DNA of 64,000 nucleotides from Bacteroidales bacterium (GTDB lineage Bacteria > Bacteroidota > Bacteroidia > Bacteroidales > UBA932): assembly GCA_017519865.1 (NCBI GenBank), contig JAFWRQ010000003.1, forward strand, positions 96,393-160,392. Reading direction: 5' to 3'. Made by a program: the position numbers and the translations under genes. This document shows positions 33,092 through 39,136 of the stretch, one piece after another (positions within the stretch are counted from its first letter, which is position 1; each line of letters opens with the position of its first letter). Under the pieces are notes generated by a model, which had not been told where the DNA came from, did not search any database, and saw nothing but the letters and a program-made list of their open reading frames with translations.

Positions 33092-33874
33092 TCAGACCTC
33101 GGTCCAGTGGATGACGATGCCGTCACGTTCCATGCCACGGAACCAGGTCATCTGGCGTTTGGCGAACTGGTGGATGGCGTTGCCCAGAAGGGTTCGCATT
33201 TCTTCGTAGGAGAGGATGCCGAGGACGTGTTGGGTGACGAATTTGTACTCAAGACCGTAGTAGATCAGGGTTTCGGCGGGGACGCCGGCGTCGAGAAGGC
33301 CGCGGACTTCGTCCACGAGGCCTTCCGCCAGGCGGGCGTCGAGGCGCGCGTCGATGCGCGCGTTCCGCGTCTCGCGGTCGACCAATGTGCCGATATAGAA
33401 AGTGTTGTGGGGAAAGAGCGATGGGTCGACTGTCGGATAGCGTTTGTCGAAATCGTAACCGCAGGTGGCGGCCTCGATGTAGAGGCCGGTGCCGCCGCAT
33501 AGCAGGGGCACCCGGCCGCGGCCGCGGATGTCCTGGTAGGCCTTCACGAAGTCTTTCTGGTATTCGTAGACGTTATACCTTGCTCCTGCGGGCTGGATAT
33601 CTATGAGGTGGTAGGGGACGTCGCCGTATTCTGACAGGTCCTTCCCGGTGCCGATGTCCATCCCTCGGTAGACCTGGCGGGAGTCGGCCGAGATGATCTC
33701 GGCGCCGAGCCGACGGGCAAGCGACACCGCGTAGCGGGTCTTGCCCGAGGCCGTCGGCCCGAGTACGCAGACGAGGTCGACGCTGCCCTCGCGCAGCGCT
33801 GCGGCCAGCGCATCGACGTCGATCGTCTCGGGAGCCGGAAGCTCCACTATCATCGGTATCCTTTTCTTGGGCAT
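33092..33874 (-). CDS. miaA: tRNA dimethylallyltransferase, short form
   Basis: A 260-residue enzyme that adds a dimethylallyl group to A37 of tRNAs reading UNN codons. The start is set at ATG 33874 (MPKKRIPMIVE), because upstream codons lie inside smpB. The P-loop is VLGPTASGKTRYA; EIISADSRQVYRGMDIGTGK and VPLLCGGTGLYIEA are family signatures, and HQFAKRQMTWFRGM is the C-terminal RQ-TWFR motif. At 260 residues it is shorter than typical MiaA (about 300), apparently through a reduced helical insertion domain. It lies 4 bases after smpB, third in the metK operon. Confidence 0.93.
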   Translation of the reverse strand: MPKKRIPMIVELPAPETIDVDALAAALREGSVDLVCVLGPTASGKTRYAVSLARRLGAEIISADSRQVYRGMDIGTGKDLSEYGDVPYHLIDIQPAGARYNVYEYQKDFVKAYQDIRGRGRVPLLCGGTGLYIEAATCGYDFDKRYPTVDPSLFPHNTFYIGTLVDRETRNARIDARLDARLAEGLVDEVRGLLDAGVPAETLIYYGLEYKFVTQHVLGILSYEEMRTLLGNAIHQFAKRQMTWFRGMERDGIVIHWTEV

Positions 33875-33878
33875 ATGA

Positions 33879-34328
33879 TTATCCGCGGTCCATTTCGCGG
33901 CGAATGTCTTTCTCCTTGATGGTCTGTCGTTTATCGAACTCTTTCTTACCCTTTGCCAGGGCGATGCGGAGCTTGGCGTAACCGTTCTCCGCAATATACG
34001 CCCGGACGGCGACAATTGTCAGTCCTTTCTGCTTGACAGCCTGCTGGAGGTGCCGCAACTCGCGCTTGGTGAGCAGGAGTTTACGGTCACGGGCGGGCTC
34101 GTGGCCGTTCCATGAGCCCCAGAAATAGGTGGAGATATTCATTCCCTTGACGTAGAGCTCCCCGTTGACGAAGTAGCAGAAAGCGTCGGCGAGGGAGGCC
34201 TTGCCGAGGCGCAGCGATTTGATCTCGGTGCCCACGAGGACGATGCCTGCGTCGTACGTCTCGAGAAACTCGTAGTCGTACGACGCGCGGCGGTTCGTAA
34301 TCTGTATCTTGCTCTTGGCTTTAGGCAT
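33879..34328 (-). CDS. smpB: SsrA-binding protein SmpB
   Basis: A 149-residue RNA-binding protein that delivers tmRNA to stalled ribosomes (trans-translation). The features are standard: [59 protein letters not shown] and the basic C-terminal tail [20 protein letters not shown], which inserts into the decoding centre. It lies 6 bases after metK and 4 before miaA, so expression should share the SAM-responsive leader. No tmRNA gene is seen in the window. Confidence 0.98.
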
Positions 34329-34334
34329 GGCTGG

Positions 34335-35615
<1,281 letters not shown>

Positions 35616-35619
35616 AAAC

Positions 35620-35650
35620 AAAAAACTCCAACGTAAAACAATACGCGGAG
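35620..35650 (-). terminator. Leader terminator of metK
   Basis: On the minus strand, CTCCGCGTA pairs with TACGTTGGAG (4 bp, a G-U pair, one bulged U, then 4 bp) around a 6-base loop, followed by T6. The T run ends 4 bases before the metK ATG, so this is a textbook attenuator position. Its 5' arm is also complementary to the aptamer strand at 35714-35721. Confidence 0.8.
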
Positions 35651-35672
35651 AGTCACTAAACGAAGCTATTAT

Positions 35673-35722
35673 GGAATTTTAGCATTTTTTAGTGTGGTTG
35701 CAAGCAATCAAATCTCTCCACA
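35673..35722 (-). ncRNA. Candidate SAM-II riboswitch (metK leader)
   Basis: The minus-strand RNA contains UGUGG (35722-35718) pairing with CCACA (35697-35693) as P1. Between them are GAUUUG (35714-35709) and UUGCAA (35703-35698), and after P1 the run AAAAAAUGCUAAAA (to 35677). This order (stem, GAUUU loop, UUGCAA, closing stem strand, AAAU able to pair with AUUU as a pseudoknot, GCUAAA) is that of the SAM-II (metA) aptamer. The promoter box lies just 5' at 35733-35740, and the gene controlled makes SAM. Identified by eye; a covariance-model search would settle it. Confidence 0.8.
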
Positions 35723-35732
35723 ATTCGGTTTG

Positions 35733-35740
35733 CAAAGATA
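35733..35740 (-). promoter_or_regulatory. -7 promoter box for the metK operon
   Basis: Minus-strand TATCTTTG, placed so that transcription would begin within a few bases of the SAM-II aptamer's first stem strand. Confidence 0.8.
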
Positions 35741-35789
35741 CGGCAAAAAAATAGATATGCAAAACATCAGTGAATTCGAAAAAAACGTG

Positions 35790-35842: not shown

Positions 35843-38800
35843 ATGTACCAAGCATTCAAAAGACTTTTGACCGTTGTCGCGGTCATGCTGGTGGGAATTT
35901 CGGCATTCGCCCAGGTTACCACCTCTTCCCTTAACGGCAAGGTTGCCGACAGAGATGGCGAGCCCGTCGTGGGCGCCGCCGTTATCGCTGTCCATACCCC
36001 TTCCGGTACGCAGTACTATGCTGTCGCCAATGCGGAAGGCCGTTTCGCCATCAACGGTATGCGCTCCGGCGGCCCTTACTCCGTAGAGGTCAGCTGTCTC
36101 GGATACCAGACGGTCACTTACACCGACATCACCCTTCAGCTCGGTGAAGCCTATTCGCTCAACGCAGAGATGCCTGATGACACCCAGATGCTTTCCGAGG
36201 CCATCATCATCTCCACGGCCAACACCAAGTTCGCCACCGAGAAGACCGGTGCCGCCACCAACATCAACAACAGCCAGATCGTCTCCCTCCCTACCGTCAG
36301 CCGCAACCTCACCGACGTGACCAGGCTTTCGCCTTACGGCGGTAACGGCATGACCTTCATGGGAGCTGATGACCGTACCTCCAACTTCACCATCGACGGT
36401 GCCAACTTCAACAACAACTTCGGTCTTTCCGGCAGCCTCCCGGGCGGCGGCAACCCCGTCTCCCTCGACGCCATCGAGGAAATGCAGGTCGTCATCTCTC
36501 CTTATGACGTCCGCCAGACCAACTTCATCGGCGGTGGTGTCAACGCCATCACCAAGTCCGGTACCAACACCGTCAAGGGTACTGCCTACGCCTACCACAG
36601 GAATGAGTTCATGCGCGGTAATACCGTCGACGGACTCGAGCTCGGCAACCGCGACCCTGAGCGTACCACCACCTACGGCATGACGCTCGGCGGCCCCATT
36701 ATCAAGAACAAGCTCTTCTACTTCGTCAACTTCGAGTACATCCCGCACCCGGAGGAGACTTCCCGCTGGAAGCCTTCCACCAACGGCGTGGCCGATCCTT
36801 CCCTCTTCATCTCCCGCACCACCGTGGCCGATATGCAGAGAGTCAAGGATTTCGTCATGAACAAGTACGGCTATGACACCGGTTCCTACGACAACTTCAA
36901 CGGAAACGAGTCCAACATGAAAGCCCTCGTCCGTCTCGACTGGAACATCAACGACAACCACAAGCTCGCATTCCGCTACAACTATACCATCTCGCGCGAG
37001 TGCATGTACACCAACGCCTCGTCCTCCGACGCCGGACAGCGTACGACCGAGGCCCGTCTGTCGCAGTATTCCATGGCTTTCGCCAACTCCTTCTACACGA
37101 TGGACAACCTCGCCCAGGGTTTCTCGCTCGACCTGAACAGCAGGATCTCCGCCAATATGGTCAACCAGTTCCTGGCTACCTACTCCAAGCTCGACACTTC
37201 CCGCGGCACCCCTTCGGCCTACTTCCCGTTCATCGACATCCTCGACGGCTCCGGAACCATCACTCCGTACATGTCTCTCGGATATGAGCTCTTCACCTGG
37301 CAGAACGGTTACCACAACAACGTCATCAACGTCAAGGACGATTTCACCGTCTATGCCGGCAACCACAAATTCATGAGCGGTCTCGCTTACGAGTATCAGA
37401 TGGCCGACAACGCCTACCTCAGGAACGGTACCGGTTACTACCGTTACAACTCCCTCGACGACTTCCTGAACGGCGCCACCCCTGAGACCGTCAACTTCAC
37501 CTATGGTTACGAGAACCTCATGCGTGACAATCCGGCCAGCCGCGTCGCCTACCATAAGGTCAGTGCATACGTCCAGGATGACTGGGACGTGACCGACCGC
37601 CTCAAGCTCACCGCCGGCGTCCGTCTCGACTCCTATGTCTTCGACAACAGCAACATCATCACCAACAAGGCCGTCTACGACCTTGAGTATCCCGATGCAG
37701 AAGGCAACATCCGCCATATCGACACCGGCAAGTGGCCTGTCGCCACTCCTATCATCTCCCCCCGCGTAGGTTTCACCTGGGATGTCTTCGGTGACAAGAG
37801 CTTCAAGCTCCGTGGCGGTACCGGTCTCTTCTCCGGCCACGTTCCGCTCGTCTTCCTCACCAACATGCCTTCCAACTCTTCGATGAACCAGTACAACGGT
37901 ATCATCACCACCAAGTACAAGGACGGTGTCGCCACTCCCGACCCGCTCCTCGAGCAGTTCAAGGGTGACCTGATCATCGACCGCGAGCAGATGAGGGAGA
38001 AGTGGTACAGCCTCGGCTTCCCTAAGGAGATCTCCGCCGAGGACGGCAAGATCCCTTCCAAGCTTGCTGCCGTCGATCCTCATTTCAAGATGCCTCAGGT
38101 CTGGAAGACTTCCCTGGCACTCGACTATGCCATTCCGGTTTCCTTCCCGTTCACCGTCACCCTGGAGGGTATCTTCAACCAGAACATCAACGCCTCCACC
38201 ATGGAGGACTGGAACATGATCCCTGCTGACGGATTCGCACGCTTCAAGGGCGCCGACAACCGTCCGGTCTATCCTACCAACTACACCTATACCAAGTCTC
38301 CTGCATACGTGCTGACCAATACCCATCTTGGTTACACCTATTCCGGAAACATCACGGTCAACATGGCCCCGACCGAGGGTCTCAGCATCATGGCCGCATA
38401 TACCCACACCGTCAACAAGGAGCTCACCTCCCTGCCCGGTTCCGACCCTGCTTCGATCTTCAACTACGTTCCTACCGTAGCAGGCCCGAACTACACGACC
38501 CTGCACTCCGCTGCGAACCTCACTCCCGACCGCGCCGTGGTCTCCCTCACCCATAATGACAAGAGCCACAACCACTACGGCTTCATCTATGAGACCTGGA
38601 GGGGCGGTTACAACTATTCCTACATGCTCACCAACGACATGAACGGTGACAACTACAAGTACGACTCCCTCTACATCCCCACCGAGGATGAGGTGTCCGG
38701 CCGCGAGTTCCGCTTCGTCTCCCAGGACGATGCCGACCGCTTCATGGCTTTCGTGAACAACGATCCTTACCTCAGCACCCACAAGGGACAGTATGCCGAG

Positions 38801-39136
38801 GGCTACTCCGTGTACAATCCTTGGGTCCACAGGCTCGACTTCAGCTACAAGCATGACTTCCAGGTCAAGGTCGCCAACACCCTCAACACCCTGCAGCTCA
38901 GCCTCGACATCAAGAACCTCCTCAACCTCTTCAACTCCAGCTGGGGAGTCAGCAAGTACATGAATCCCGACCTCAACTCCGGACGTATCCTCCAGTACGA
39001 GGGCATCGACGCCCAGGGTTATCCTACCTTCTCCACTCCTGCTGCCGTCAGCGGTTCCACCCAGACCTGGATGTATAACACCGCCATCGGACAGTGCTGG
39101 TATGCTTCCGTCGGTATCAAGTATATGTTCAACTAA
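35843..39136 (+). CDS. Oar-like TonB-dependent outer-membrane receptor
   Basis: A 1097-residue outer-membrane protein with a signal peptide (MYQAFKRLLTVVAVMLVGISAFA). It has an N-terminal carboxypeptidase-regulatory-like domain (SSLNGKVADRDGEPVVGAAV to SCLGYQTVTYTDI), a plug domain with DRTSNFTIDGANFNNNFGLS and AIEEMQVVISPYDVRQTNFI, then a very large barrel. The plug wording (PTVSRNLTDVTRLSP, GGVNAITKSGTN) is that of the Oar/OmpA-related TonB receptors rather than SusC. No SusD gene follows; instead a BACON lipoprotein and a small barrel are encoded 17 and 24 bases after successive stops. The transported or exported ligand is unknown. Confidence 0.9.
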   Translation: MYQAFKRLLTVVAVMLVGISAFAQVTTSSLNGKVADRDGEPVVGAAVIAVHTPSGTQYYAVANAEGRFAINGMRSGGPYSVEVSCLGYQTVTYTDITLQLGEAYSLNAEMPDDTQMLSEAIIISTANTKFATEKTGAATNINNSQIVSLPTVSRNLTDVTRLSPYGGNGMTFMGADDRTSNFTIDGANFNNNFGLSGSLPGGGNPVSLDAIEEMQVVISPYDVRQTNFIGGGVNAITKSGTNTVKGTAYAYHRNEFMRGNTVDGLELGNRDPERTTTYGMTLGGPIIKNKLFYFVNFEYIPHPEETSRWKPSTNGVADPSLFISRTTVADMQRVKDFVMNKYGYDTGSYDNFNGNESNMKALVRLDWNINDNHKLAFRYNYTISRECMYTNASSSDAGQRTTEARLSQYSMAFANSFYTMDNLAQGFSLDLNSRISANMVNQFLATYSKLDTSRGTPSAYFPFIDILDGSGTITPYMSLGYELFTWQNGYHNNVINVKDDFTVYAGNHKFMSGLAYEYQMADNAYLRNGTGYYRYNSLDDFLNGATPETVNFTYGYENLMRDNPASRVAYHKVSAYVQDDWDVTDRLKLTAGVRLDSYVFDNSNIITNKAVYDLEYPDAEGNIRHIDTGKWPVATPIISPRVGFTWDVFGDKSFKLRGGTGLFSGHVPLVFLTNMPSNSSMNQYNGIITTKYKDGVATPDPLLEQFKGDLIIDREQMREKWYSLGFPKEISAEDGKIPSKLAAVDPHFKMPQVWKTSLALDYAIPVSFPFTVTLEGIFNQNINASTMEDWNMIPADGFARFKGADNRPVYPTNYTYTKSPAYVLTNTHLGYTYSGNITVNMAPTEGLSIMAAYTHTVNKELTSLPGSDPASIFNYVPTVAGPNYTTLHSAANLTPDRAVVSLTHNDKSHNHYGFIYETWRGGYNYSYMLTNDMNGDNYKYDSLYIPTEDEVSGREFRFVSQDDADRFMAFVNNDPYLSTHKGQYAEGYSVYNPWVHRLDFSYKHDFQVKVANTLNTLQLSLDIKNLLNLFNSSWGVSKYMNPDLNSGRILQYEGIDAQGYPTFSTPAAVSGSTQTWMYNTAIGQCWYASVGIKYMFN

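Follow-up and report, generated by a model that had tools for sequence, protein, structure and literature searches.

Does the SAM-sensing leader in front of the gene for SAM synthetase act on transcription, on the start of translation, or on both? The question is raised by metK on the minus strand of the window, by which we mean the whole stretch of 64,000 nucleotides analyzed here, from an assembly that is 75% complete and belongs to what we take to be the GTDB genus Cryptobacteroides. An earlier note had read in this leader a promoter box, a SAM-II-like aptamer and a hairpin with a T-run, and had proposed that the P1 helix of the aptamer and an 8-bp antiterminator exclude each other. The observation is correct as a whole, with every element at its place, and as a mechanism it is most likely correct. 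Judged by its sequence, the leader is very probably a SAM-II (RF01726) transcription attenuator, with predicted feedback on metK. The locus contains the following features.

35843-39136, plus strand: outer membrane protein resembling TonB-dependent receptors, CarboxypepD_reg domain included (Pfam), divergent from metK
35733-35763, minus strand: promoter-like element, presumably of the Bacteroidetes type (TTTG 35763-35760, 19-nt spacer, TATCTTTG 35740-35733)
35669-35727, minus strand: SAM-II aptamer, RF01726 (cmscan 60.9 bits, E 3e-9, gathering 44, model positions 1-60 of 60)
35714-35722, minus strand: antiterminator strand a, UGUGGAGAG, which overlaps the P1 5' strand and is complementary to 35652-35644; the counterpart helix covaries in relatives
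35688-35694, minus strand: possible inner antiterminator strand b, CACUAAA, the end of the P1 3' strand plus an A-rich joiner; pairs with 35660-35654 in the MFE structure
35654-35660, minus strand: possible inner antiterminator strand b', UUUAGUG; pairs with 35694-35688 in the MFE structure
35644-35652, minus strand: antiterminator strand a', CUCUCCGCG, which overlaps the terminator 5' arm; the antiterminator is the MFE structure of RNA ended at 35644 (z -3.38)
35620-35652, minus strand: intrinsic terminator (hairpin core 35650-35626, -9.6 kcal/mol; T6 35625-35620)
34335-35615, minus strand: metK, SAM synthetase, 426 aa (Pfam S-AdoMet_synt_N, _M and _C)
33879-34328, minus strand: smpB, 6 nt after metK (Pfam SmpB, 1.2e-54)
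33092-33853, minus strand: miaA (Pfam IPPT, 1.4e-47); the stretch is the one searched, and the start codon is uncertain, an ATG at 33874 also being in frame

The Rfam covariance search that the note had called for returns RF01726 as the sole gathering-level match in the window. P1 pairs UGUGG (35722-35718) with CCACA (35697-35693), and the GAUUU, UUGCAA, AAAU and GCUAAA motifs are all present. The proteobacterial SAM-II model, RF00521, gave no match in this genome and was likewise silent in all 14 control genomes. The aptamer adjoins a SAM gene, the context expected of SAM-II, and Pfam bears out the earlier naming of metK, smpB and miaA, whose small gaps suggest that they would form one transcript. 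The promoter box is where it had been read, and in 156 of 162 leaders of the genus TAnnTTTG precedes GATTTG by no more than 60 nt. As claimed, the hairpin ends in a T6 run (to 35620) that stops 4 nt before the metK ATG (35615-35613). The neighboring upstream gene is transcribed divergently, which assigns the hairpin to the leader of metK and rules out its reading as the end of an upstream transcript. A simple terminator scan of the window did not list it, probably because the stem is interrupted.

The model that we propose from these elements has two states. Transcription would start just upstream of P1. At low SAM, the P1 5' strand would pair with the terminator 5' arm (a-a'), probably assisted by a nested pairing of the aptamer 3' side (b-b'), so that the terminator would be blocked and metK, smpB and miaA read. 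Once SAM is bound, both strands would stay in P1 and the pseudoknot, the terminator would form, and transcription would halt 4 nt before the metK ATG. In this model, the binding of SAM, the sense in which the switch works and the part played by b-b' are inferred from the sequence. The 8-bp complementarity between GUGGAGAG (35721-35714) and CUCUCCGC (35652-35645) consists of seven Watson-Crick pairs and one G-U pair, and it extends to a ninth, wobble pair of U35722 with G35644. Mutual exclusion of P1 and this helix is supported by the Rfam match, by folding and by related leaders.

Folding of the window leader bears on both states. The folding energy of the terminator (35655-35620) is -10.6 kcal/mol (z -3.70, 0/200 shuffles), and that of the antiterminator intermediate, RNA from 35727 ended just past a' at 35644, is -21.3 (z -3.38, 0/200 shuffles). 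In the window, as in six relatives, RNA ended after a' folds as the antiterminator. The leader taken as far as the U-run reaches z -1.35 (21/200 shuffles); with P1 enforced it forms the terminator at -19.6, versus -22.9 when free, in a fold that includes neither SAM nor the pseudoknot. Two predictions count against the model: when 30 nt of metK are included, the MFE structure of the leader (-29.3) contains the terminator hairpin and lacks the antiterminator, and in one relative, L030, the full leader also folds with the terminator.

In addition, helix length in the window, with G-U allowed, is at chance level both for a-a' (2418 of 5000 shuffles as long) and for the aptamer 3' side in b-b' (2511 of 5000). 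The earlier reader's eye was right, yet the window alone would not have proved the switch. The a-a' length being at chance, support for this helix is comparative.

For the comparison we searched 400 genomes of the genus, a sample of a larger number. RF01726 matched at E ≤ 0.001 in 366 of them (356 over the cut-off), in 102/119 genomes of a family sample and in 51/61 of a mixed sample. The named records closest to the genus are MAGs assigned to Bacteroidales or Bacteroidia, among them several of ruminant-gut origin. Two genomes of the genus, 88 and 95% complete (G018 and G022), had no RF01726 match under stricter filters. The 162 genus metK leaders with a start codon fall into 52 ‘direct’ leaders, with AUG 1-7 nt after GCUAA, and 110 ‘long’ leaders, with at least 40 nt. 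This set is biased, 128 of its loci coming from the best-scoring part of the genus matches listed; a first sample, which included every match in the genus, had matches in 35 of 37 genomes and yielded 17 direct leaders, 17 long leaders and one cut by a contig end. Removal of identical leaders and of those with less than 30 nt upstream left 108 long leaders. The antiterminator was anchored in 107 of them (L033 being the exception), of which 99 are in the tree; an earlier anchoring, used for an 82-leader test, had covered 100 of the 108 and dropped eight, the window's among them. The best-energy hairpin was judged wrong in 11 leaders of the alignment, and the hairpin was later anchored at the antiterminator.

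A terminator-like hairpin is a near-constant feature of the long leaders, found in 107 of the 108 (L176 not by the same scan). At dG ≤ -7, a hairpin with a U-run is present in 106/107 anchored long leaders versus 28/321 dinucleotide shuffles, and anchored at the antiterminator it is present in 105/107 at dG ≤ -6. In these 105 leaders, the distance from hairpin to AUG ranges from 7 to 379 nt with a median of 21, and it is at least 40 nt in 40 leaders and at least 100 nt in 15. Four leaders (L187, L188, L013 and L162) have tandem or dispersed repeats between terminator and metK, and that of L187 runs for 459 nt after the aptamer.

These distances bear on whether the hairpin acts on the ribosome. 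If the aptamer acted on translation, the SAM-bound hairpin beside the AUG would block ribosome entry and the U-run would be incidental. The U-run of the window does end 4 nt before the AUG, and elsewhere the AUG lies within 7 nt of GCUAA, in 52/162 leaders of the genus and 7/35 of sister genera, so close that translational versions probably exist in the family. Occlusion, however, needs no U-run directly 3' of the stem, and the hairpin with its U-run is kept at least 40 nt before the AUG in 40/105 leaders. The hairpin is retained despite widely varying distance, which makes a terminator more likely than a ribosome block; we consider translational action of the window leader improbable and have set ribosome occlusion aside as the main reading. 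A combination of the two, in which the hairpin would terminate transcription and also affect initiation on read-through transcripts, deserves somewhat more credit and is still unlikely. Such dual control is suggested by the short hairpin-AUG distance in the window and by a reported S. meliloti metA SAM-II leader with a translational switch plus a terminator (in a passage of Scheuer 2022), but the wide spread of that distance across the related leaders, given above, speaks against it.

Attenuation further requires that a-a' be more than the chance complement of a constitutive terminator, as the helix length in the window would by itself allow. Since P1 draws on the same strand, the core of a-a' (UGUGGA with UCCGCA) is almost constant. 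The upper end of the helix, by contrast, lies upstream of P1 and opposite terminator-loop bases; we number its positions from GGA, with -5 to -7 upstream of P1. Among 82 unique leaders, 151 of 246 cells at -5 to -7 are Watson-Crick pairs versus 100 ± 6.6 with shuffled partners (0/2000). To allow for shared ancestry, evolution of both columns was also simulated on the metK tree, the number of changes being kept as observed. Under this tree-aware null, 176 of 297 cells pair versus 118 ± 18.7 (99 leaders, p 0.0014), or 201 versus 150 with G-U allowed (p 0.0044), and thus the covariation check proposed in the note came out positive for three positions upstream of P1. Taken one by one, -5, -6 and -7 give p 0.051, 0.11 and 0.0066, and -8 and -9 give no tree-aware signal (p 0.35 and 0.63). 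Phylogenetically independent pairs favor pairing by 1.4 versus 0.1 at -5, 3.7 versus 1.6 at -6 and 2.4 versus 0.0 at -7 (A/G), numbers too few for significance, and do not favor it at -8 (0.5 versus 1.1) or -9 (0.5 versus 0.7).

A check with a standard tool used 43 of the 107 leaders, after 27 segments longer than 125 nt were left out and near-copies thinned. In a-a', 84.7% of cells are paired, versus at most 57.1% when the strands are slid; the covariation score is 0.176 versus 0.113 ± 0.012 (0/500 shuffles), and 26 cells are changed on both sides versus 11.7 (0/500). Two of the five measures are less clear, namely pairs changed on both sides (5 versus 3.6, 79/500 shuffles) and further pair types (16 versus 13.1, 21/500). 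RNAalifold on the same 43 leaders predicts P1 and three inner pairs and omits a-a', a point in favor of chance complementarity. In these leaders four P1 pairs are present in 43/43 and the outermost in 37. Against chance stand the covariation upstream of P1, the near-invariance of P1 in long leaders only and comparable elements in sister genera, and we regard a constitutive terminator with a fortuitous complement as very improbable.

The covariation is a property of the genus; the window's own small lineage has no informative a-a' variation. In that lineage (L024, L203 and L212) there is no pairing at -5, and at -4 only L212 pairs, the window leader being unpaired there; the helix instead runs further down, GAGAG with CUCUC. 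Four other leaders (L012, L189, L209 and L219) likewise extend downward, GUGGAAAG with CUUUCCGC or UUUUCCAC.

The inner helix, CACUAAA (35694-35688) with UUUAGUG (35660-35654), is a possible part of the SAM-free fold that the earlier reader overlooked. Its duplex energy in the window is -12.0 kcal/mol versus -4.5 shuffled, and in many relatives AAAAAAUGCUAAAA faces a conserved UUUUGUGUUUUU. Over 104 leaders the mean is -6.95 versus -4.93 shuffled, with 88 leaders beating their own shuffles. The aptamer-swap test for b-b' was negative (better than swapped in 46/104), and there was no covariation: one partner in this complementarity hardly changes at all. Should the helix be real, the SAM-free fold would open both halves of the aptamer.

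The direct leaders of the genus point to a second output. In L040, L041 and L043 the AUG follows directly 3' of the aptamer (GCUAAAAUG). With the AUG in this place, SAM binding would cover the start region, and by their anatomy the 52 direct leaders fit what Barrick and Breaker 2007 class as ‘direct translation attenuation’. The window leader is unlike them: its AUG lies 63 nt after GCUAA, and neither start codon nor ribosome site is in or next to the aptamer.

The two states are scattered over the metK tree, requiring at least 11 changes on the protein tree, 9 on the DNA tree and 10 on the DNA tree without outgroup. These large trees hold 166 rows, 150 of them from the genus (48 direct, 102 long), 12 of the 162 leaders being excluded for short metK. 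A careful tree of 49 rows (19 direct, 26 long, 4 outgroup), picked to span clades after the large tree had been seen, needs 8 changes for the direct state (bootstrap range 8-10), and its starred branches alone force 4. A single clade of direct rows is rejected (p-AU 5.5e-75), so the pattern on the metK tree is polyphyletic. All of these trees are single-gene and the change counts do not separate gain from loss; metK may have moved between species.

Output and P1 sequence go together. UGU precedes GG in 100/105 long leaders versus 5/52 direct leaders, and near-fixation in the long leaders is what a second pairing partner would lead one to expect. In direct leaders P1 changes with compensation, one pair being A-U in 25, U-A in 22 and G-C in 5. 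On the tree, an average of 3.8 of 6 independent pairs agree with this association and 0.0 oppose it, which is not significant (median p 0.125).

Beyond the genus, 40 family loci from 24 further genera gave 35 metK leaders, five giving none. Seven of the 35 are direct, with AUG within 7 nt of GCUAA (g39, g46, g47 and g49), and one has it at 12 nt (g42). Seven leaders from four genera (g29, g30, g36 and g43) carry GUCAAAUC, which reads as the aptamer core GAUUUGAC in reverse complement, either within a hairpin with a U-run or immediately ahead of one; in the scan, this hairpin reaches dG ≤ -8 only in g29 and g30. The element tracks changes in the aptamer, with GUUCAAAUC accompanying GAUUUGAAC in L261 and CAUACAAAU accompanying AUUUGUAUG in L291, and in L266 (g30) it covers both registers. 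A helix reached by at most 10 of 200 shuffles is present in 12 of 27 leaders, counted as single tests with two from one genome, and not in the other 15. Sister genera thus appear, by sequence, to use shifted antiterminators. In eight leaders (L261, L264, L267, L276, L277, L288, L289 and L291) the element is complementary to the core around GAUUUGAC and not to P1.

Further out, other families of the order gave 16 leaders, of which none is direct and one, L051, has a hairpin with a U-run at dG ≤ -8. Named contigs gave a leader in 59 of 80 cases, and 6 of these are direct. Among the 53 long ones, the hairpin and U-run at dG ≤ -8 are present in 13, namely L082-L088, which resemble the genus in sequence, and six others. 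Long complements of the aptamer 5' half, without hairpin and U-run at dG ≤ -8, occur in L018, L125, L008, L141 and L106 of other Bacteroidales, with 11 perfect pairs in L125. Over 60 leaders, a leader's own pairings with the aptamer 5' half exceed permuted ones (27/5000 as high), and a translational switch may use the same complement trick.

Taken together, these comparisons lead us to favor, with some reserve, a model in which metK SAM-II in this Bacteroidales family has been exchanged several times, in either direction, between an attenuator and a start-codon blocker. Attenuators would copy parts of the aptamer 5' strand as reverse complement, CUCCGCAU against AUGUGGAG in the genus and GUCAAAUC against GAUUUGAC in sister genera. 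P1 would be frozen by its double role where an attenuator is present and would drift with compensation where it is not.

The SAM-II class and its termination mechanism are already known. The note had set a terminating version against the action on translation often described for SAM-II, a contrast that is not new, SAM-II with terminators having been in print since 2005. Passages of Corbino 2005 describe putative terminators after many SAM-II aptamers, with instances in the Bacteroides group; a passage of Barrick and Breaker 2007 links SAM-II with terminators, and one of Scheuer 2022 holds SAM-dependent termination at S. meliloti metZ to be most probable and reports a test of the metA terminator. 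The long-loop SAM-II of Bacteroidetes, as a passage of Weinberg 2010 presents it, is RF01726; the window leader shares its aptamer sequence, P1 and phylum, with no aptamer difference seen, and has in addition the terminator, before which the 60 positions of the Rfam model end. With proteobacterial SAM-II it shares an aptamer followed by an intrinsic terminator and the proposed OFF logic, whereas the phylum differs and the gene is metK rather than S. meliloti metA or metZ; here, moreover, there is comparative support for the antiterminator and a terminator-less state of the same gene in the genus. The relevant passages of PMC4239095 concern Proteobacteria. For other riboswitch classes, covariation models that take in the complete switch are available, according to passages of PMC13273304, whose main text names SAM-II once and has no word beginning ‘Bacteroid’; the main text of PMC12121620 has neither ‘SAM-II’ nor ‘RF01726’. 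In the open-access literature we found no paper on the RF01726 platform or on exchange of outputs within one genus, no comparative model of a complete Bacteroidota SAM-II attenuator, and no account of the attenuator-less direct leaders (52/162), their polyphyly or the shifted antiterminators of sister genera. What the present comparison appears to add to the print found, on sequence evidence, is comparative support for a complete Bacteroidota SAM-II switch and repeated exchange of its predicted output.

Expression platforms change quickly in evolution, and comparing them is difficult; here the same aptamer and the same gene come with two predicted outputs within one genus. For the Bacteroidota, the leaders let a complete SAM-II attenuator be modeled by comparison. 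They also offer a natural series for how a transcriptional riboswitch may become translational, or the reverse, and for what a second pairing would cost the aptamer.
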